Notes under the pieces: generated by a model
The model's database searches: none
Told to the model about the DNA's origin: nothing
The model's input: the letters and a program-made list of their open reading frames with translations, nothing else
In this document: positions 53,696 to 64,000 of the stretch, piece after piece
Layout of the letters: each line of letters opens with the position of its first letter
Position numbering within the stretch: position 1 is the first letter of the stretch
From: an uncultured Pelagibacteraceae bacterium
GTDB taxonomy: Bacteria > Pseudomonadota > Alphaproteobacteria > Pelagibacterales > Pelagibacteraceae
Assembly: GCA_902571425.1 (NCBI GenBank)
Contig: CACGBZ010000001.1
Span: 1 to 64,000 of the forward strand
DNA: 64,000 nucleotides
Direction of reading: 5' to 3'
Made by a program: the position numbers and the translations under genes

Positions 53696-54853
53696 ATGAT
53701 TAAAAATAAAAAATCATTGAAGGGATCTAAAACTCCTTCAAGACGTAAGTTCTTCAAAGCAGCAGCAGCAACTGGTGCGGCGGCAGCGACAGCTGTAGCT
53801 ATGCCTAATGTTGCATTTGGTGCTCCATTAACATTAAAGATGCAAGCAGCATGGCCATCAGGCGCTAACATCTTTTTTGAAATGGCAGGAGACTATTGTA
53901 AAATGGTAAGTGACATGTCTGGAGGAGAGTTAAAAATTGACCTTCAGCCGGTTGGTGCCGTTGTAAAAACTTCAGAAATTGGACAAGCAGTAAGTTCAGG
54001 TGTAGTTGATATGGGTCACTGGGTGACAGCATATTGGTACGGTAAAAATGCTGCTGCGTCTCTTTTTGGAACTGGACCATCATACGGTATGTCGTCTCAA
54101 GAAGTTATGGGATGGATGGAATACGGTGGAGGTAGAGCATTATACGAAGAAGCAGTAAAAAGTGTAGGATACAATTACACAGGTTTCTTTGCTATGCCAA
54201 TGCCAGCTCAACCATTTGGTTGGTTTAAAAAGAATGTAACTAAAGTATCTGATGTTAAAGGTATGAAGTATAGAACTGTTGGTCTAGCGACTAACGTTTT
54301 AACTGCTATGGGAATGGTCGTGAGACAATTACCAGGTGGTGAAATCCAACCAGCAATGAAAACTGGTTTGATTGATGCTGCAGAGTTTAACAACCCTACA
54401 TCAGACTCTCAGTTTGGAATGCAGGATGTCTCTAAACACTATCACCTAGGAAGTTTCCACCAATCTCAAGAAATGTTTGAAATTCCTATGAACACTAAGA
54501 GACTAAACAGCTTATCACCTGCTCATCAAGCTATTTTGAAAAATGCTGCATATGCTGCAAACACAGATAACTACTTCAAAGCATTAGTTAGATATTCAAA
54601 AGATCTAGTTAAGCTTATGAATGAGCATAAGGTAAATGTTTACCAAACATCTGACGCAATTTTAGCTGAACAATTAAAAGGTTGGGATAAAATCGTTGGT
54701 GAGTTTTCTGCAAAAGATCCTTTCTTTAAGAAAGTTGTAGATTCTCAAAAAGCATACGCTAAGAGAACAATTAAGTATCTGTTGATGAATCAACCGAACT
54801 ACAAATTAGCTTATGAAAACGAGTTTGGACCAATTGAGAAAGTTAAAATCTAA
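53696..54853 (+). CDS. TRAP transporter solute-binding protein DctP (Tat-exported), system 1
   Basis: The 385-residue protein has a twin-arginine signal (SRRKFF at 15-20, then an Ala-rich stretch to about residue 42). The mature part is of the DctP/TakP type, with WPSGANIFFEMAGDYCKMVSDMSGG, the carboxylate-Arg region VKGMKYRTVGLA and GLIDAAEFNNP. It belongs to the mannitol/chloroaromatic-like class of TRAP proteins, whose tested members bind 2-oxo acids or related anions. A terminator-like hairpin separates it from the permease genes. Confidence 0.92.
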   Translation: MIKNKKSLKGSKTPSRRKFFKAAAATGAAAATAVAMPNVAFGAPLTLKMQAAWPSGANIFFEMAGDYCKMVSDMSGGELKIDLQPVGAVVKTSEIGQAVSSGVVDMGHWVTAYWYGKNAAASLFGTGPSYGMSSQEVMGWMEYGGGRALYEEAVKSVGYNYTGFFAMPMPAQPFGWFKKNVTKVSDVKGMKYRTVGLATNVLTAMGMVVRQLPGGEIQPAMKTGLIDAAEFNNPTSDSQFGMQDVSKHYHLGSFHQSQEMFEIPMNTKRLNSLSPAHQAILKNAAYAANTDNYFKALVRYSKDLVKLMNEHKVNVYQTSDAILAEQLKGWDKIVGEFSAKDPFFKKVVDSQKAYAKRTIKYLLMNQPNYKLAYENEFGPIEKVKI

Positions 54854-54873
54854 TTAACTTTAACAAATTTTAG

Positions 54874-54904
54874 AAAAGGGGGTTTAAAAACCCCCTTTTT
54901 TTTT
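54874..54904 (+). terminator. Rho-independent (partial) terminator behind TRAP binding protein 1
   Basis: AAAAGGGGG (54874-54882) pairs with CCCCCTTTT after an 8-base loop and runs into nine T residues. It is a good intrinsic terminator between the binding-protein gene and its permeases, likely reducing permease expression relative to the binding protein. Confidence 0.88.
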
Positions 54905-54930
54905 AGTTAAATTTATTATAATTTTTATTG

Positions 54931-55515
54931 ATGGAATCTTTCATTAAATTTGCAGATACTTTAAGCACTTCAATGGGAAAAGCATTTTCTTGGTGTATTG
55001 TAATTTTAATGGGAGGAACAGTTTATGAAGTTATCGTTGCTTATGTTTTTAATAAGCCAACTTTATGGAATTTTGATTTTAGTATGCAAATGTATGGAGC
55101 AATACTAATGATGTCAGGAGCATATTGTTTAGCTACAGAGGCTCATGTAAGAGGGGATGTCATTTATCGTTTATTCAAACAAAAAACTCAAGCTTGGATA
55201 GATTTAGTACTTTATTTTATCTTTTTTTTTCCAGGTGTAGTTGCTTTAGCTTTTTACGGATATGAATATGCAGCACTTGCTTGGAAAATAAAAGAAACAA
55301 GCTGGAGTAGCCCAGCTCAAATTCAAATTTACATGGTTAAATCTATGATACCTGCTGCCGGAGTTTTGTTGATTATTCAAGGTATAAGTGAAGTTTTTAG
55401 ATCTGTTATTTGTATTAAAACTGGTCAATGGCCAGCGAGAATGGTTGTTGCTGAGGAAACAGAACAAATGTTGATGAGAACCTCACAAGAGGAGGACAAA
55501 TCAAATGTTATTTAG
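54931..55515 (+). CDS. TRAP transporter small permease DctQ, system 1
   Basis: The 194-residue protein has four membrane helices and the DctQ signature CLATEAHVRGDVIYRLF. The helices lie at about 15-35, 52-70, 88-110 and 130-155. The ATG at 54931 is preferred to an in-frame TTG one codon upstream. It ends 11 bp inside the DctM gene. Confidence 0.93.
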   Translation: MESFIKFADTLSTSMGKAFSWCIVILMGGTVYEVIVAYVFNKPTLWNFDFSMQMYGAILMMSGAYCLATEAHVRGDVIYRLFKQKTQAWIDLVLYFIFFFPGVVALAFYGYEYAALAWKIKETSWSSPAQIQIYMVKSMIPAAGVLLIIQGISEVFRSVICIKTGQWPARMVVAEETEQMLMRTSQEEDKSNVI

Positions 55516-56866
55516 TCTTTCAAATCCAGAAGTTGCCATCTTAATGATGGGGATATTTTTATTTGCTGTTCTTTTAGGTTTTCCAATTGCATTCACACTA
55601 ATGGCAATGGGTATCGCGTTTGGATACTACGCTTATTATGACGCGACCATGATGGAACATATTTTTGACAACAGAATTTTTCAATTATTTGTTCAGAACA
55701 CTTATACTGTAATGGATAATAATGTGCTCACAGCTGTACCATTGTTTTTATTTATGGGTTATCTAGTTGAAAGAGCTGGGATTGTTGCAAAATTATTTTT
55801 TGCTATTAGATTAGCTGCGCATAGACTACCAGCATCTATGGCGGTTGCCGCATTAATTACTTGTACATTATTTTCTACAGCAACAGGAATTATAGGAGCA
55901 GTTGTTACTTTGATGGGGTTGTTGGCTTGGCCAGCAATGGTTAAAGCTGGTTATGATAAAAAATTTGCATCTGGTATAATATGTTCAGGAGGATGTTTGG
56001 GTATCCTAATACCACCAAGTATTATGTTAATTGTTTATTCCGTCATTGCACAATTATCTCCACTTAGACTTTTTGCAGCTGCTATCTTTCCTGGATTGCT
56101 TTTGGCGGGATTATATATTGCTTATGCAGTTACAAGAGCTTGGTTAAATCCATCGATTGCGCCGAAACCTCCAAAAGAGGACATTCCACCTAGAGCAGAA
56201 ATTTTAAAAGAGGTGCTGGTTTCTTTCGTACCTCTTTTTGGGTTGATTATGTTAGTACTTGGAACAATTTTAGCAGGGATAGCGACACCTGCGGAAGCTG
56301 CAGCAGCAGGAGCTTTTGGAGCTCTAATTTTATCTTGGTTTTACAAAACTCTAAAATGGCAAAACTTTAAAGAGTCTGTTTTTTTAACTGCTAAAACTAC
56401 TGCCATGATTATGTGGTTATTTATTGGATCTTGGACTTTCTCATCAGTCTTTTCTTACTTAGGGGGACATGAAGTTTTTGAACATTTTTTTACTTCTATA
56501 AATATTTCAACTTGGCAATTTCTAGTAATTACACAAATTATAATTTTCCTTTTAGGATGGCCTTTAGAGTGGACTGAAATTTTAATTATTTTTGTTCCGA
56601 TTTTTTTACCCTTACTAGAAATTTTTGGAGTTAACCCATATTTTTTTGCAATGTTAATAGCTTTAAATTTACAAACTTCTTTTTTAACGCCGCCAATGGC
56701 TATGTCAGCCTATTATTTAAAAGGAGTTCAGAAAACTAATGTCGAATTGATGGATATTTTTAGAGGTATAATGCCGTTTTTAGCAATTGTTATTTTTGCT
56801 ATGTTTTTAATGTATATGTTTCCTGCAATTGCTTTATGGTTACCGGAAACTTTATTTGCTAACTAA
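55505..56866 (+). CDS. TRAP transporter large permease DctM, system 1
   Basis: The 453-residue protein has about 12-13 helices and the DctM hallmarks AVPLFLFMGYLVERAGI, GIIGAVVTLMGLLAWPAM, GGCLGILIPPSIMLIVYS and ATPAEAAAAGAFGAL. It drives sodium-coupled uptake with DctQ. It has the normal family length and no C-terminal extension, in contrast with system 2. GAGGAGG upstream is a good ribosome site. Confidence 0.95.
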   Translation: MLFSLSNPEVAILMMGIFLFAVLLGFPIAFTLMAMGIAFGYYAYYDATMMEHIFDNRIFQLFVQNTYTVMDNNVLTAVPLFLFMGYLVERAGIVAKLFFAIRLAAHRLPASMAVAALITCTLFSTATGIIGAVVTLMGLLAWPAMVKAGYDKKFASGIICSGGCLGILIPPSIMLIVYSVIAQLSPLRLFAAAIFPGLLLAGLYIAYAVTRAWLNPSIAPKPPKEDIPPRAEILKEVLVSFVPLFGLIMLVLGTILAGIATPAEAAAAGAFGALILSWFYKTLKWQNFKESVFLTAKTTAMIMWLFIGSWTFSSVFSYLGGHEVFEHFFTSINISTWQFLVITQIIIFLLGWPLEWTEILIIFVPIFLPLLEIFGVNPYFFAMLIALNLQTSFLTPPMAMSAYYLKGVQKTNVELMDIFRGIMPFLAIVIFAMFLMYMFPAIALWLPETLFAN

Positions 56867-56871
56867 AAAAA

Positions 56872-58200
56872 ATGATAGATATTTTTTCTCTTAAAGCTGA
56901 AGAGCTTTCTCTAAAAATTAAAGATGCCCAGTTAACTTCAGTAGAAATTTGTGAAAAATATATAGAAAGAATTAATAAATTTGAAAAAAACGTAAAAGCT
57001 TGGGCACATTTTGATAAAAAACTACTATTAGAAAAAGCTGCTGATGCTGACGAATATAGAAGATCAGGAAAACCAACAGGTCCGTTGCATGGCATCCCAG
57101 TAGCTGTGAAAGATATTGTTGGAACTCTAGATATGCCAACTGAATGTGGAACTGTAATTAGAAAAGGAAAATCCTATTCTCAAAATGCAGAAATAGTTGA
57201 TTTACTACTAGCAGCTGGAGCAATTGTTATGGGTAAAACGGCCACTGCAGAGTTAGCTTATCTTCACCCTCCAAAAACAACTAATCCTCACGATCATTCA
57301 AGAACACCAGGTGGTTCATCCAGTGGATCCGCTGCGGTAGTTGCTTCGTTTATGGCACCTTTATCGATAGGTTCTCAAACAGGAGGTTCAATAATTAGGC
57401 CAGCATCTTACTGTGGAGTTGTAGGCTATAAACCAACCTACGGATTAATTTCACGAAATGGTGTGCTCAAAACTTCAGAAAAATTAGATCATATAGGTGT
57501 ATTTGGAAGATCTGTAGAGGATGTAGCGTTACTTTCAAAGGTATTAATAAAAAAAGATAATTTTGATTCTGCGACCGTTCATTATTCAGCTGAAAATATG
57601 CTTACAGAAACAAAAAAAGGTCCTCTTTTTGAACCAAAATTTATTTTTTACAAAACAGATTATTGGAAAAATATTGAAAAAAAATCTAGAGAAGCTTTTG
57701 AATATTTTATAAAATCTTTTAAAAAAAATATTGAGGTCTTTGATACTCCTTCTTATTTTAAAGATATTCATAAATATCATCAAATTATGTATGAAACTGA
57801 TTTAGCGAATAATTTTGGATTGTATTATAAAAAGTATAAAAAAAAATTATCTAAGCCAATGCAAGATGCAATTGTTAAAGGTAATAAACATTCAGCAAAA
57901 GAATATGCTGAAGCCTTAGATTTTATGAAAAGAAGTTACGAGTCTTACGAAGAAGTATTTGAAGATTATCATGGTGTTTTATCACCTTCTAGTCCTGGTG
58001 TTGCTCCTAAAAGTTTGAAAAGTACTGGTTCTGCGGAATTTAATAAAGTTTGGTCTTATTTAGGAACCCCTTGTATATCACTCCCACTGTTACAAGGTGA
58101 AGCAAATATGCCTCTAGGAGTTCAATTGACTGGTGCAAAGTATGATGATCACAGATTTTTAGGTATTGCTAATTGGTTAGAAAAGGAATGTAATAATTAA
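56872..58200 (+). CDS. Amidase (amidase signature family)
   Basis: The 442-residue enzyme has the Ser-cisSer-Lys triad region: Lys in VAVKDIVGT, and GGSSSGSAAVVAS followed by SIGSQTGGSIIRPASYCG. Family members hydrolyse carboxylic amides to acid and ammonia. No signal peptide is present, so it acts in the cytoplasm on an imported or internal amide. It lies 5 bp after DctM of system 1 and is probably cotranscribed. Confidence 0.92.
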   Translation: MIDIFSLKAEELSLKIKDAQLTSVEICEKYIERINKFEKNVKAWAHFDKKLLLEKAADADEYRRSGKPTGPLHGIPVAVKDIVGTLDMPTECGTVIRKGKSYSQNAEIVDLLLAAGAIVMGKTATAELAYLHPPKTTNPHDHSRTPGGSSSGSAAVVASFMAPLSIGSQTGGSIIRPASYCGVVGYKPTYGLISRNGVLKTSEKLDHIGVFGRSVEDVALLSKVLIKKDNFDSATVHYSAENMLTETKKGPLFEPKFIFYKTDYWKNIEKKSREAFEYFIKSFKKNIEVFDTPSYFKDIHKYHQIMYETDLANNFGLYYKKYKKKLSKPMQDAIVKGNKHSAKEYAEALDFMKRSYESYEEVFEDYHGVLSPSSPGVAPKSLKSTGSAEFNKVWSYLGTPCISLPLLQGEANMPLGVQLTGAKYDDHRFLGIANWLEKECNN

Positions 58201-58504: not shown

Positions 58505-59629
58505 ATGATTAAAGAAAAAAAATCATTGAAGGTTTCTAGATCGCCTTCAAGAAGAAAGTTCTTTAAAACTGCAGCTGCAACTGGTGTTGCTGCTGTTGCT
58601 TTATCTGCTCCAGCCGTTGCCAAAGAAAGAATTGAAGCTTCTATGGTAGCTACTTGGCCAAGAGATTTTCCAGGCTTAGGAACTGGCGCACAAAGACTTG
58701 CTCAAAGATTAAGCGATATGAGTGACGGAAGAATTCAAGTTACTTATTATGCTGCTAATGAAAGGGTAAAAGCATTTGACTCATTTGACGAAGTTGCGTC
58801 AGGTAACTCGCAAATGTATCACGGTGCTGATTACTACTGGGTTAAAAAACACCCTGCATTTGGATATTTTACTGCCGTTCCATTTGGTTTCACATATGCT
58901 GAAATGAATGCATGGTTAAAATTTGCTGGTGGACAAGAGTTGTGGGATGAATTGACTGATGATTTCGGAACGCAGAGTTTTGCTGCTGGTAACACTGGAG
59001 TGCAAATGGGTGGTTGGTTTAACAAAAAAATTAGATCAGCTAATGACTTTAAAGGTTTAAAAATGCGTATGCCTGGATTAGGTGGACAAGTTCTTGGAAA
59101 ACTAGGTGGTTCTCCAATTTCACTTCCTGGTGGACAAATTTACGAAAACCTTGTGTCAGGTGCAATTGATGCAACAGAGTGGGTAGGACCTTGGAATGAT
59201 GAAGCTATGAAGTTCCAGGAAGCTGCTAAGTATTATTACTATCCAGGAATGCATGAACCAGGATCTACACTAGCTTGTGGAGTTAACAAATCTTGGTTTA
59301 CTAGTTTGTCAAAATCAGATCAGTTAATTATTAAAACTGCGTGTGATTGGGCTGATACAACTACAATGGCTGAATACAATGCTAAAAACGGAGCTGCACT
59401 AGCGCGATTAGTTAACGAAAGTGGAGTTAAACTAGAGAAGTTTAACGATAAAGTTTACGATGCTTTCGCTAAAGGTGCTGCAGAAGTTTTTGATGAAGTT
59501 CAACAACATAGTGCTCTTGCTAAGAAAGTACATGCTGCCTTTGTTAAAGGTCGTAAGGAAATTGGTGCTTGGACTAACTTGTCTGACGGGCCATATGTTG
59601 CTCAAAGAAATAGAGCATTAGGAGTATAA
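58505..59629 (+). CDS. TRAP transporter solute-binding protein, TakP-like (2-oxo acid type), system 2
   Basis: The 374-residue protein, starting at the ATG at 58505 behind AGAGGAGAT, has a twin-arginine leader almost identical to system 1 (SRRKFF at 15-20). The mature part closely follows the TakP pattern: TWPRDFPGLGTGAQRLAQRL, GNTGVQMGGWFNKKI, GLKMRMPGLGGQVL and DATEWVGPWNDEAM. TakP proteins bind pyruvate and other 2-oxo acids with a sodium ion. An upstream in-frame ATG at 58469 would displace the ribosome site. Confidence 0.93.
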   Translation: MIKEKKSLKVSRSPSRRKFFKTAAATGVAAVALSAPAVAKERIEASMVATWPRDFPGLGTGAQRLAQRLSDMSDGRIQVTYYAANERVKAFDSFDEVASGNSQMYHGADYYWVKKHPAFGYFTAVPFGFTYAEMNAWLKFAGGQELWDELTDDFGTQSFAAGNTGVQMGGWFNKKIRSANDFKGLKMRMPGLGGQVLGKLGGSPISLPGGQIYENLVSGAIDATEWVGPWNDEAMKFQEAAKYYYYPGMHEPGSTLACGVNKSWFTSLSKSDQLIIKTACDWADTTTMAEYNAKNGAALARLVNESGVKLEKFNDKVYDAFAKGAAEVFDEVQQHSALAKKVHAAFVKGRKEIGAWTNLSDGPYVAQRNRALGV

Positions 59630-59648
59630 TTTAATTCTAATTATTACT

Positions 59649-59677
59649 AGAGGGCCCTTAAATGGGCCCTCTTTTTA
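59649..59677 (+). terminator. GC-rich hairpin behind TRAP binding protein 2
   Basis: AGAGGGCCC and GGGCCCTCT make a perfect 9-bp stem with a 6-base loop, followed by TTTTT. It is a clear intrinsic terminator shape 19 bp after the stop codon and 24 bp before the permease gene, so it probably acts as a partial terminator within the operon. Confidence 0.88.
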
Positions 59678-59700
59678 TATATCATTAAAAGATTTTTAAT

Positions 59701-60684
59701 ATGCTGGCAAAAAATAACTTATCTATTTTAATAAGAATATTTAGTTATTCTATTTTAGCCTTAACATTAGTTTTTCTAATTAATAATGTTTTGACAGTTT
59801 GGTTTGATTGGCCAGGAGTTAAAAAACTTTTTGCTCATTATGAATTATTTGGATTTAAAAAATTGAATAACCCTTTAGAGGGGCTAGCAATAAACTTATC
59901 ATATATTCAATTACTGTTTTATTTTGTATCTCTAATAGGAGTTATATTTTTTGTTTTGAAATCTATAAAACAAACATTACAGACAGACTCTGAGATCTTG
60001 ACAAAAATTACAGCTTATATTGTGAGATCTTCTTTCTGGGCTGTATTAATTGTTGGAGTAGCAGATTTTTTAATCTCATTTATGGTTGTGGAAAAACTAG
60101 TCGAGCCAATTTTTGGCGAACAACTTAAAATTAATTTAGTAATACCCGCTTTTAGAATTACATATATACACTTCCCTTTGATATTAGTTTCTTTTGTAAT
60201 TGGTTATTTTACAAGATCTGTAGGATTTATTTGGTTAGCAGTTTTAGTAGTTGGAAGTGAATTTTTGATAGTTCTCTCAAGATTCATATTTCAGTATGAA
60301 CAGGCATTTCAGGGTGATCTTGTTCGTTTTTGGTATGCAGCCCTTTATTTATTTGCAAGCGCTTATGCGTTAATTCACGAGGGCCATGTTAGAGTAGATG
60401 TTCTTTATACTGGTTTTAGTGAACGTAAAAAAGCATGGACTAATGCAATCGGGTCATTAATTCTAGGAATACCTTTATGTTTGATTGTAATATTTTTAGG
60501 CATGGGGGGCAAAGCTAGCATCATCAATGGTCCTGTAATTTCATTTGAAATTACACAGCAAGGTTCAAACGGATTATATTTACTTTATCTTATGGCAGTT
60601 TATTTAGCCGTGTTTGCAGTAAGTATGTTAACTCAATTCACAAGCTTCTTTATGAGTAGCAGTCATAAACTTTTAAAAAATTAA
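59701..60684 (+). CDS. TRAP transporter small permease DctQ, extended form, system 2
   Basis: The 327-residue protein carries the DctQ signature in its second half (ALIHEGHVRVDVLYTGFSERKKAW). About 170 residues with three to four extra helices precede it (about 12-33, 70-93, 115-135), making it much longer than the usual 160-200. Extended DctQ subunits occur in the TakQ/mannitol-type TRAP group. It stands 3 bp before the large permease. Confidence 0.88.
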   Translation: MLAKNNLSILIRIFSYSILALTLVFLINNVLTVWFDWPGVKKLFAHYELFGFKKLNNPLEGLAINLSYIQLLFYFVSLIGVIFFVLKSIKQTLQTDSEILTKITAYIVRSSFWAVLIVGVADFLISFMVVEKLVEPIFGEQLKINLVIPAFRITYIHFPLILVSFVIGYFTRSVGFIWLAVLVVGSEFLIVLSRFIFQYEQAFQGDLVRFWYAALYLFASAYALIHEGHVRVDVLYTGFSERKKAWTNAIGSLILGIPLCLIVIFLGMGGKASIINGPVISFEITQQGSNGLYLLYLMAVYLAVFAVSMLTQFTSFFMSSSHKLLKN

Positions 60685-60687
60685 ATA

Positions 60688-63339
60688 ATGGAACATTTAT
60701 TTTTAGCATTACTTGTAATTATAATGATTGGAGCATTAGCTTCTGGTTTTCCAGTAGCTTTTGCATTGCCTGGATCAGCGATAATTTCAATCGGGCTAGC
60801 TGCTTTTTTTGGTTATTTGTTTGCAGGAGATAGTAGTGCTTATTTTGCTGTTGATGGCCCTAAAGAATGGTTAACCGCTGGAATTACAAACTTTAGGAGT
60901 AATTACTGGGATGTAGAAACTGATACTTTAATTGCAATTCCTTTATTTATTTTCATGGGGATCATGCTTCAAAAATCAAAAATTGCGGAAGATCTTTTAG
61001 TTACAATGGGACAGTTGTTTGGACCTATCCCTGGAGGTTTAGGAATATCTGTAATTTTTGTTGGGGCCTTACTTGCAGCTACCACAGGTATTGTTGGCGC
61101 AACAGTAATAGCAATGGGATTAATATCATTACCCACAATGCTTAATAATAAATATGATAAAAGCCTTGCAAGCGGAATTGTTTGTTCCTCTGGAACCCTT
61201 GGGCAAATTATACCTCCTTCAATTGTATTAATTATTATAGCTGATCAATTAGCTAGTGCAGCAGACGTTGCAAATACTATGCGTCAGACTGATTACAAAA
61301 TTTTAACTGGTGAATTTAATATGCCTGGAGAATTTAGAGTGGGATCAACTTCGGCAGGAGATATGTTTTTGGGTGCACTACTACCAGGATTAGTTTTAGT
61401 TGGTTTGTATATGATTTATGTATTTGTGTACGCAAGATTAAATCCTAAGGCAGCTCCTCCTGTTCCATTTAGAGGAAATTTTGATTCAAAATTTTGGATT
61501 AGAGTTTTGATGGTAATTATTCCACCTCTTGCATTAATTTTTGCTGTTCTAGGATCTATACTTTTAGGTATTGCAACTGTTAATCAAGCTGGATCTATTG
61601 GAGCAATAGGTGCAACTATGATGGCAGGTTATCGTTTACACAAAGGAAAAAAAGATGCTTATTATCCAATTATAATTGCAATTTTATCTATCATTCCAAT
61701 TTATATTTTATCTAAGAATTATAATTTAAATATTAAGGCTGTAGAAACTAGAGATCTTACAGCAATTTTTATTACGGGATTTTTTACAATTACTTTTTTA
61801 ATAGGAATTATTTGGAGTTTTTGGAGAGCATATAAAGTTGAAAATGTTTTAAGAGAAGTTGTTACAGAAACATGTGTAACGACTTCAATGGTATTTATAA
61901 TTTTATTGGGTGCAGCAATGTTAACCTCTGGATTTAGAGCATTTGGAGGTGAAGAGTTAGTAAGAGATTTTCTTCAAGATTTACCAGGAGGATTTTGGAC
62001 TCAGTTCATTGTTGTAATGGCAGTGATTTTTTTATTAGGTTTCTTTCTTGATTTTATTGAAATAGCTGTGGTTGTTGTTCCTATCATTGCTCCTATATTA
62101 TTAGCTGAACCCGGAGCGAATATAAGTGCAATTTGGCTTGGTGTGATGATTGGGGTAAATTTGCAAACTTCATTTTTAACACCTCCATTTGGTTTTGCTC
62201 TATTTTATTTGAAGGGTGTAGCTTCAAAACTTGTTACCACTTTAAATATTTGGAAAGGAGTTGTTCCATTTATAATTTTACAATTGATAGGTCTTGGAAT
62301 CGTTGGTTTTTATCCATCATTAGTAAATTACTTACCAGCAAGAACATATTTAACATCGAACGTCGCTCCACCACCGATGAATCCAAAGCTTCAATATTGC
62401 TTACAAGAGTACAAATTTGCAATTTATAATACTGAAGAACAAAGAATTACTAATGCAATAAAAGATATGCAGAAATTAACTCCTACAAATCTTCCAATGG
62501 ATAAATTAGATATTTTTGAAGAGCATTTTGATAATGCTCTTGGGACTTTTGCTATTGTTAAAAAACTTCAAAAAACAGAGGAAGAATATGAATTATTTAC
62601 AAAAGATTATAGGGACTTGCATTTCAATGTAAGAAAAATTGAGAAAAAAATTAGAAAAATAGACCAGAAAATTAAAAAAACAAAAGCTGAAATTAGAAAT
62701 TTAGATGATGATGACTTGCCAGATAAAAATAAATTAGAATTAAGGATCGAGAATTACGAGCTAGAAATTAAAGAACTTCAAAATAAAGTTCCTGAAAATT
62801 GGAAAGCTAAAAATGGAGAGTTTGAAATATTACACAAAGCAAAAAACACAAGAACTAAAAGGTATAGAAAAAACGTTGATGAAGCTTATGAAACTTTGGA
62901 TCAAATAGTAATGTTTATAAACGACAATGAAAAATTAAAAGAACTTTCACCCGAAATAAAAGAATTAAAATATAACATTGATAATAAAAATTACGAAAAC
63001 GCAATATCAATAATTGATAATCTCTTTGAAAAACTAGGAGAAATTTCTGGAACCGAAGAATTTGCGAATAAATTAGATGACCTAATATCTGTTATAGATA
63101 ATGATGAAGTAGATGATCAAAAATTAATTGAAGTTAGTTCAGAAACTTTTAATCTTTTCAATTTAGAAGTTTCATGGAGAGATGATGCTAATAAGAATTT
63201 GATGTCTGAATTAATTAAATATAATGATGTTATCAAACATAATATTGGACTCAGACTTCAAAACAGATTAACTAAAGAACAAGCTAAATTTGTTGCTAGG
63301 TGTAACTCAGTTCATAGAGATATATCTTTAAACTTTTAA
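60688..63339 (+). CDS. TRAP transporter large permease DctM with long C-terminal coiled-coil extension, system 2
   Basis: Residues 1 to about 555 are a DctM-type permease: IAIPLFIFMGIMLQKSKIAED, TGIVGATVIAMGLISLP, SSGTLGQIIPPSIVLI and LQTSFLTPPFGFALF, with extra helices near 330-400. After the last helix (ending near NYLPARTYL, residue 547 on) come about 320 more residues. They are highly charged, with a coiled-coil-like stretch at about 632-705 rich in Lys/Glu/Ile heptads. The rest is helical. No known domain is recognised there. Total length 883, about 1.5-2 times normal DctM. The frame is continuous with no stop, so it is one polypeptide. Confidence 0.92.
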   Translation: MEHLFLALLVIIMIGALASGFPVAFALPGSAIISIGLAAFFGYLFAGDSSAYFAVDGPKEWLTAGITNFRSNYWDVETDTLIAIPLFIFMGIMLQKSKIAEDLLVTMGQLFGPIPGGLGISVIFVGALLAATTGIVGATVIAMGLISLPTMLNNKYDKSLASGIVCSSGTLGQIIPPSIVLIIIADQLASAADVANTMRQTDYKILTGEFNMPGEFRVGSTSAGDMFLGALLPGLVLVGLYMIYVFVYARLNPKAAPPVPFRGNFDSKFWIRVLMVIIPPLALIFAVLGSILLGIATVNQAGSIGAIGATMMAGYRLHKGKKDAYYPIIIAILSIIPIYILSKNYNLNIKAVETRDLTAIFITGFFTITFLIGIIWSFWRAYKVENVLREVVTETCVTTSMVFIILLGAAMLTSGFRAFGGEELVRDFLQDLPGGFWTQFIVVMAVIFLLGFFLDFIEIAVVVVPIIAPILLAEPGANISAIWLGVMIGVNLQTSFLTPPFGFALFYLKGVASKLVTTLNIWKGVVPFIILQLIGLGIVGFYPSLVNYLPARTYLTSNVAPPPMNPKLQYCLQEYKFAIYNTEEQRITNAIKDMQKLTPTNLPMDKLDIFEEHFDNALGTFAIVKKLQKTEEEYELFTKDYRDLHFNVRKIEKKIRKIDQKIKKTKAEIRNLDDDDLPDKNKLELRIENYELEIKELQNKVPENWKAKNGEFEILHKAKNTRTKRYRKNVDEAYETLDQIVMFINDNEKLKELSPEIKELKYNIDNKNYENAISIIDNLFEKLGEISGTEEFANKLDDLISVIDNDEVDDQKLIEVSSETFNLFNLEVSWRDDANKNLMSELIKYNDVIKHNIGLRLQNRLTKEQAKFVARCNSVHRDISLNF

Positions 63340-63342
63340 TTA

Positions 63343-64000
63343 ATGGAAAATTATATTTTACCAAAAAAACAGGCTATTATTGTTTTTTTTGTATTTGCAT
63401 TTGGTTATTTTTTATCATGTTTGTTACGTGCAATTACTGCAACACTTTCACCAGTATTAACCTCAGAATTTAATTTATTAGCAGCTGATTTAGGATTATT
63501 GGCTGGAGGTTATTTTTTAGGTTTTGCTTGTATGCAAATACCACTTGGATATTTGTTAGATAAATATGGACCAAAAAAAATTGTCTCTTCTTTTTTATTA
63601 ATTGCATTAGTTGGAACAGGATCATTTGCTTTAGCTGAAAGTTTTTCTGGATTATTAATTTCGCGAATTCTAATTGGAGTAGGTGTTAGTGCTTGTTTAA
63701 TGGCTCCTTTAACGGGTTACAGAATATGGTATGCAGAAAATCAACAACAAAGAGCAAACTCATGGATGTTAATGATTGCATCTCTAGGTTTTTTGTCATC
63801 CACATTGCCTGTACAACTTTTATTGCCTAGTTTCGGATGGAGATGGATATTTGGAGGCATCGCTATCTTAATTTTAATTAGTATTTTTTTAATGTTAGTT
63901 TTCATTCCAAAATGGAATTTAACTAAAAATAAAGAGCTACAAGAGCCAAGTAATACTGGAACTTTATCAGAAGTTTGGAAAAATAGATTTTTTATAAGTG
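63343..64000 (+). CDS. Major facilitator superfamily transporter (N-terminal part, cut by window end)
   Basis: The frame opens with ATG 3 bp after the TRAP fusion gene and runs off the window with 219 codons. It encodes about six helices with the MFS pattern: QIPLGYLLDKYGPKKIV (motif A-like loop between helices 2 and 3), ISRILIGVGVSACLMAPLTGY and FGWRWIF. The substrate cannot be told from the N-terminal half. It may belong to the TRAP system 2 transcript. Confidence 0.9.
   Translation, partial: MENYILPKKQAIIVFFVFAFGYFLSCLLRAITATLSPVLTSEFNLLAADLGLLAGGYFLGFACMQIPLGYLLDKYGPKKIVSSFLLIALVGTGSFALAESFSGLLISRILIGVGVSACLMAPLTGYRIWYAENQQQRANSWMLMIASLGFLSSTLPVQLLLPSFGWRWIFGGIAILILISIFLMLVFIPKWNLTKNKELQEPSNTGTLSEVWKNRFFIS

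Follow-up and report, generated by a model that had tools for sequence, protein, structure and literature searches.

The window analysed here is a stretch of 64,000 nucleotides from an uncultured Pelagibacteraceae bacterium (assembly GCA_902571425.1, contig CACGBZ010000001.1, positions 1 to 64,000). Its forward strand carries an operon for a tripartite ATP-independent periplasmic (TRAP) transporter, in which the genes for DctP, the solute-binding protein (SBP), and DctQ (58508-60684) are followed by the gene for the large permease DctM (60688-63339, one open frame of 883 codons). Residues 1-555 of DctM (60688..62352) formed the membrane core, assigned from PF06808, TIGR00786 and the TRAP M subunits solved by cryo-electron microscopy (cryo-EM). 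Pfam DctM (PF06808) matched this front part with E 1.7e-59 and 202.2 bits against a gathering score of 23.8, and TIGR00786 gave 258.5, slightly under its curated cut-off of 268.45. The final hydrophobic segment of the core was at residues 526-542 and the tail set in at about residues 551-560. The initial annotation, made from the letters of the window, had described a DctM frame continuing without interruption into a tail of about 320 residues from 62365 (residue 560), and both points agreed with these results. The C-terminal tail was delimited as residues 556-883 (62353..63336, +), followed by the stop codon at 63337-63339. As that annotation had also supposed, the tail was unusual among the paralogues: the genome (1.31 Mb) held four further DctM loci, with frames of 440-478 codons and no tail.

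The reality of the fusion was examined in SAR11 contigs titled Pelagibacteraceae or Pelagibacterales. From 338 contig stretches encoding relatives, 80 loci were kept; the scan used SAR11-specific patterns and returned close relatives only. Three of the 80 were too short for the test, and 75 of the other 77 had ATG, 883 open codons and TAA. The frame was therefore not an assembly error. The initial annotation had proposed such a SAR11 count and had named a stop or frameshift between core and tail as the alternative; no split was found in these 75 loci. The other two, single-cell assemblies L036 and L070, had one core frameshift each (L036 near residues 495-514, L070 near 403), which is either an assembly error or a pseudogene. 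A frameshift or chimera as the source of the fusion was rejected because of these in-frame loci and because the fusion also occurred in distant alphaproteobacteria.

The tail was present in 14 of 61 genomes (the window's own included), all within the window's genus (14/37), with two of the 14 ending at contig edges, and in none of 24 genomes from the rest of the order. In another sample it was absent from two near-complete genomes of the same genus and two genomes of the same family; its distribution near the window is therefore patchy. The class sample contained it in 31 of 385 genomes and 24 of 276 genera, and the phylum sample in 7 of 398 genomes, all of the same class. With a broader, more diverse profile the last count rose to 9 of 398; both extra genomes lay outside the class, and their matches, weak and partial (4.8e-5 and 8.2e-4, in frames of 484 and 522), were rejected as noise-like. 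The tail is thus confirmed as a real, old and conserved helical module fused to DctM.

For comparison, 36 tailed loci were fetched, giving 37 tailed DctMs with the window, along with 20 loci of untailed relatives. The untailed DctM set comprised 21 sequences, after L191 and L192 were dropped for split core alignments and three untailed paralogues from tailed loci were added. The tail of about 325 residues measured 324-334 residues in 35 of the 37. Counted past the column of P550, these 35 had 329-339 residues and two shortened tails had 246 and 312, against 4-7 in 18 of the 21 untailed DctMs (30, 50 and 83 in the other three). Mean column conservation of the tails was 46%, with conserved ends and a variable middle. 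The N-terminal side of the tail base (residues 560-577, 62365..62418, +) carried the motif PPPxNPxLQxC, of which residues 561-571 were 94-100% conserved. The C-terminal side (residues 854-883, 63247..63336, +) carried GLRxQ...C...HRDISLxF with an invariant terminal Phe. Each side contained a cysteine invariant in 37/37 sequences: Cys571 (62398..62400, +) and Cys872 (63301..63303, +).

The tail was rich in charge and helix, with many Lys and Arg residues in SAR11. The family-averaged hydrophobicity of residues 632-705 had a peak period of 3.55, and its power near 3.5 was matched by none of 2000 shuffles, which bears out the heptad-like stretch previously marked at these residues. AlphaFold, run with 18 close sequences, gave an all-helical tail in which helices 604-671 and 677-699 formed an antiparallel hairpin. 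Its block-mean pLDDT (predicted local distance difference test) was 86-93 for residues 650-699 only, with low confidence elsewhere. From these helices and the heptad period, an antiparallel coiled-coil hairpin was predicted at residues 604-699 (62497..62784, +).

The searches for a known domain gave no assignment. The window tail had only matches under the curated cut-offs in Pfam and NCBIfam and none better than 0.014 in the PDB; no envelope-binding domain matched it, and DUF3394 was not among its Pfam matches up to E 1. A Pfam scan of the 37 tails returned 50 families. Among the 25 of these listed, DivIC was the most frequent (5/37) and DUF3394 did not occur; the best E among the matches listed was 7.7e-6, for the CENP-F leucine zipper in two members. 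A profile of the tail matched 74 PDB sequences up to E 1, the best at 0.003. The Pfam and PDB matches of the family were read as coiled-coil matches or noise. Of 351 Foldseek matches to the tail model, none reached E 0.001, and the model was too weak to trust. A catalogued domain was thus rejected, since all four resources (Pfam, NCBIfam, PDB, Foldseek) yielded nothing beyond scattered coiled-coil matches, and the earlier idea of a module outside the catalogued domains stood up to these searches. Plasmids gave no match.

No account of this tail was found in the open-licence literature of PubMed Central (PMC), while subscription papers may mention it. The 'C-terminal extension' of the TakP paper is the swapped helix of TakP and not a tail. 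According to the authors of the 2024 paper on a TRAP 'claw', no such extension had been described for DctP-type TRAPs (PMC11574862).

The tailed cores were 58-94% identical to that of the window, and the tails 22-33% outside SAR11. In a search with the core alone (190 class genomes, E limit 1e-60, at most seven candidates scored per genome), all matches of at least 57% identity lay in frames of 838-960 codons, except a contig-edge fragment in G067, and all others had 54% or less. Some of the lower-identity matches had long frames (696-737 and 912 codons). Those of G217, G191 and G147 (loci L194, L190 and L189) were read and had no tail; this reading left out the long frames of G087, G117, G101 (C1:1939925) and G228 (C1:1489930). 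In a tree of DctM cores, built from the first 560 residues of the tailed rows, the tailed sequences made up one side of a branch with 100/100 support. This tree held 57 of 58 rows, as L189 was left out for its length, and had long branches for U_L172u, U_L195 and U_L164u. The DctP tree (52 rows) placed the DctPs of tailed loci on one side of a branch, likewise with 100/100 support. The core of the tailed clade also had inserts. Columns 53-70 were gapped in 95% of untailed rows and lie in the region of residues 45-74 (60820..60909, +), with the clade-specific residues W61, G65, N68 and R70. Columns 204, 207, 208 and 213 were gapped in every untailed row and lie in an acidic loop at residues 190-222 (61255..61353, +), with K204, G208 and P213. 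Both regions were predicted from the topology of homologues to be periplasmic, so that the inserts at about 53-70 and 204-213 would lie on that side of the membrane.

DctQ of the window (327 aa, 59701..60684, +) matched Pfam DctQ at residues 188-309. It began with an N-terminal extension of about 160 aa with about four extra hydrophobic segments and no Pfam match (59701..60180, +). Of the 36 tailed loci, 34 had a homologue of DctQ residues 1-165, and contig ends cut the remaining two (L147 and L171); among the 20 untailed loci no open reading frame (ORF) gave one at E 1. The DctQ adjoining the tailed DctM measured 320-369 aa in those same 34 loci; L147 had a fragment and L171 none. In 16 of the 20 untailed loci the DctQ ORFs measured 167-238 aa, with a longer frame in L179, L189, L190 and L192, and none of the 20 aligned with the window DctQ ahead of residue 147. 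The residue comparison picked tailed DctQs above 300 aa and untailed ones below 300 aa, which is circular for length; the length claims rest on the unfiltered outputs and the homology test. Untailed locus L179 (L179:2545-4803) had a DctQ frame with room for a different N-terminal extension, in which hydrophobic segments flanked an Ala/Glu-rich, coiled-coil-like stretch. The stretch may represent a periplasmic coiled-coil acquired independently by a TakP-like system.

DctP of the window (58508..59629, +) was a TakP-like SBP with a Tat-like signal and a C-terminal region alignable with TakP. Its PDB matches included 7ug8, named a ketoacid-binding protein (9.5e-75), and TakP 2hzk (5.2e-70). The pyruvate and cation ligands of TakP are Tyr100, Gln156, Arg177, Glu214, Trp215 and Glu240 (PMC1839085). 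The window DctP had all six, as Y110, Q166, R187, E224, W225 and E250, and each was 100% conserved in 34 tailed DctPs. The likely cargo, with moderate confidence, is therefore a monocarboxylate of the 2-oxo or 2-hydroxy type, and DctP is probably dimeric. A TakP-like DctP adjoined the tailed DctM in 33 of 36 loci and was unmatched in L147, L151 and L171. L151 (L151:5466-9205) is a second, divergent tailed system in genome G167, with a core 57.6% identical to that of the window; its TakP-like DctP was unmatched in the fetched stretch. Locus L163 (L163:4739-10935) had the order Q-M-P-P, both of its downstream DctP genes being TakP-like; its tail, shortened to 241 aa from residue 556, kept both Cys.

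The DctPs of the tailed clade differed from the others at particular sites. At 24 positions a residue was present in at least 90% of 34 tailed and at most 15% of 18 untailed DctPs. Twenty of the 24 lay within six residues of another (clustered, p 0.012), and 13 fell in 80-108 and 205-216 against 2.9 expected, these ranges being chosen post hoc. Position 210 was Gln in 100% of tailed and Glu in 83% of untailed DctPs. Helices alpha2 and alpha5 of SiaP dock on the M subunit (PMC9971032). DctP 80-108 and 205-216 were judged to correspond to these two helices, in an approximate mapping from phmmer ranges (query 61-278 on 7t3e 21-236). The tail probably evolved once, together with the extended DctQ and a sub-clade of TakP-like DctP.

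Co-variation was examined by distance correlations with the core removed, in 31, 27 or 25 systems; L162, L163, L172 and rows without P or Q were dropped beforehand, and the rows Qcvar and, in two subsets, Pvar gave no numerical value and were left out. The tail and the DctQ extension gave a partial r of 0.316 (p 0.0002, n=31), rising to 0.431 without SAR11. The values for the tail and DctP were 0.141 (p 0.067) and, without SAR11, 0.329 (p 0.001).

The membrane side of the tail was assessed from relatives and from the cysteines. The topology of PpSiaM is N-out/C-out by cryo-EM (PMC9971032), and in naturally occurring M-P fusions the M subunit bears a periplasmic domain (PMC9352664). Compared with solved M subunits, the window core had an insertion between residues of about 319 and 391 with two hydrophobic segments; since it adds two segments, topology parity is kept provided both cross. 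The loop ahead of the last helix (residues 509-523) contained three Lys and lacked acidic residues, as would be typical of a cytoplasmic loop, which supports a C-out orientation; loop charges were taken from clear loops only. Each of the 37 tails had exactly two Cys, at columns 571 and 872. No other Cys occurred in 12,079 tail residues, against 17.5 expected at the core's own low rate; this expectation ignores the kinship of the sequences, and the implied probability is indicative only. Both Cys were kept in the shortened tails of L162 and L163. All 37 tails thus had the paired invariant Cys and no others of an extracytoplasmic disulfide-closed domain, and the window's genome encodes DsbB. The C-out homologues, the Cys pair and DsbB together make a periplasmic, disulfide-closed arm likely. 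They argue strongly for the periplasmic side, and the Cys pair argues fairly strongly for closure by a Cys571-Cys872 disulfide.

The tail would thus be an all-helical periplasmic arm on the C-terminus of the TRAP large permease. Its two conserved ends would form a membrane-proximal base locked by the Cys571-Cys872 disulfide, and the less conserved middle would be an antiparallel coiled-coil. The M domain of HiSiaQM comprises helices TM2-11 (TM, transmembrane; PMC9352664), and the last M helices belong to the moving elevator or transport domain (PMC9352664, PMC9971032). Because the last DctM helix lies in the elevator domain, the arm would hang from the elevator at the periplasmic face, by the docking place of the SBP. 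Seated against the DctQ extension, it would guide or hold the 2-oxo-acid-binding DctP on the transporter during handover. The docking role is suggested with moderate confidence by the co-occurring DctQ extension, the clustered clade-specific residues of DctP, the distance correlations and the predicted SBP contact of the periplasmic claw of VcGluQM. A disulfide-locked periplasmic arm that docks or handles DctP alongside the DctQ extension was considered, as a whole, to have slightly better than an even chance of being correct. A stronger version, in which the arm and the multi-helix DctQ extension are a module of single origin and together serve as a permanent docking site for a dimeric binding protein of 2-oxo acids, is tentative and falls somewhat short of an even chance.

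Several points weigh against this docking arm. With a mean pLDDT of 57.6 the tail model was weak, and the model of the full-length protein, at 35.9, was unusable; neither gave a Cys-Cys distance or a P/Q contact. The membrane side is deduced from relatives, and parity requires that the segments at about 325-344 and 357-381 each span the membrane. Alternatively, the invariant Cys could have a metal-binding or redox role. The mirror-tree signal was modest, and for DctP not significant on the full set. The ordinary DctQ part also correlated with the tail (0.144, p 0.07-0.09; 0.230, p 0.014 without SAR11), so the distance signal is suggestive and not specific. Untailed L179 apparently has its own, different DctQ extension; a long DctQ therefore need not imply a tail.

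Other roles can be envisaged for the tail. A periplasmic arm could act as a structural brace. By linking the elevator with the scaffold of the extended DctQ, or one permease with another, it would restrict or coordinate the stroke and leave DctP untouched. The co-occurrence of tail and DctQ extension (34/36 tailed loci, 0/20 untailed) suits this brace, as does the DctQ extension having the strongest partial distance correlation, and coiled-coils often oligomerise. DctP, however, also has clade-specific residues, and these cluster in its candidate docking regions; the brace was considered possible, with a chance well below even. An arm touching the peptidoglycan, an outer-membrane porin or another periplasmic partner, and so positioning the importer, is improbable. 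The long hairpin, variable surface and conserved base would suit such a reach, but the window tail matched no known envelope-binding domain, and the recurrent neighbours identified were parC and the tRNA-protein transferase, most neighbours being unannotated.

The remaining two explanations are both very unlikely. A passenger extension of little function would fit the fast divergence of the middle, reflected in the low mean column conservation, but not the invariant ends and Cys, the narrow length range or the single origin. The initial annotation had called the tail cytoplasmic and had suggested that it might sense cytoplasmic state, bind a partner enzyme or oligomerise the transporter. The charged, helical, Lys- and Arg-rich character in SAR11 would fit a cytoplasmic sensor or enzyme-binding tail, yet the C-out homologues, the existence of M-P fusions, the Lys-rich loop immediately ahead of the last helix and the paired Cys with none elsewhere in the tail stand against it. 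The cytoplasmic location is therefore very probably wrong, and the sensor was rejected on the same topology and Cys evidence, while the binding of a partner is still likely.

Around the tailed operon, an ordinary second TRAP system lay upstream (53696-56866; DctP 385 aa, DctQ 195 aa, DctM 453 aa), with an amidase gene between the two (56872-58200). In the window group, a gene for a major facilitator superfamily (MFS) transporter directly followed the tailed permease (63343-63999). The genes that intervened in L173-L175 lay on the opposite strand and comprised a ketopantoate-reductase-like gene, one for an AMP-binding enzyme and one from a gamma-glutamyltranspeptidase cluster. In nine of the 36 tailed loci (L141, L143-L145, L149, L150, L155, L156 and L161) the operon was flanked by an Arg/Leu-tRNA-protein transferase cluster and a parC cluster, one member of each being identified by Pfam. 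The conserved flanks point to vertical descent in those loci.

TRAP transporters are widespread importers of organic acids, especially in marine bacteria, and the handover of cargo by the binding protein is still being worked out. If the arm and the DctQ extension do form a permanent docking site, the binding protein would be held and handed over by the arm and would not meet the permease by free collision alone. A conserved arm at the docking face, acquired in a single event along with a matching DctQ extension and DctP sub-clade, would offer a natural comparison between tailed and untailed relatives, and the corrected membrane side decides which partner to seek.

Among known systems, TakPQM, the 2-oxo-acid TRAP transporter of Rhodobacter sphaeroides (TakP, 2hzk/2hzl), has P, Q and M subunits and a close DctP homologue, as in the window. 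By eye in the alignment, TakP lacks the tailed-clade residues R52, D53, E95 and K235 and looks like the untailed type, a comparison made from TakP alone. SiaQM of P. profundum and H. influenzae (7qha, 8b01, 7qe5, 8thi) has a homologous M core, with which the elevator fold and C-out orientation are assumed to be shared, whereas it has no such tail, a four-helix DctQ and sialic acid as substrate. In the natural M-P fusion TRAP of A. intestini (G4Q5D7; PMC9352664), a periplasmic module is fused to M as proposed for the window; there the module is the SBP itself, while the window would have a coiled-coil arm and a separate SBP. VcGluQM, a TAXI-TRAP, has a C-terminal extension composed of a DUF3394 'claw' of mainly beta structure together with three TM helices, and its authors predict contact with the SBP (PMC11574862). 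The likeness would lie in a periplasmic extension at the C-terminus of a TRAP membrane subunit, attached to the transport domain. The claw is mainly beta, comes with three extra TM helices and belongs to a TAXI-type system, while the window tail is predicted to be all-helical, directly follows the last core helix in a DctP-type system, has an invariant Cys pair and has no DUF3394 match. The window tail is therefore not a member of the claw family. The VcGluQM claw, though unrelated, is its nearest precedent, and the tail may work like it.

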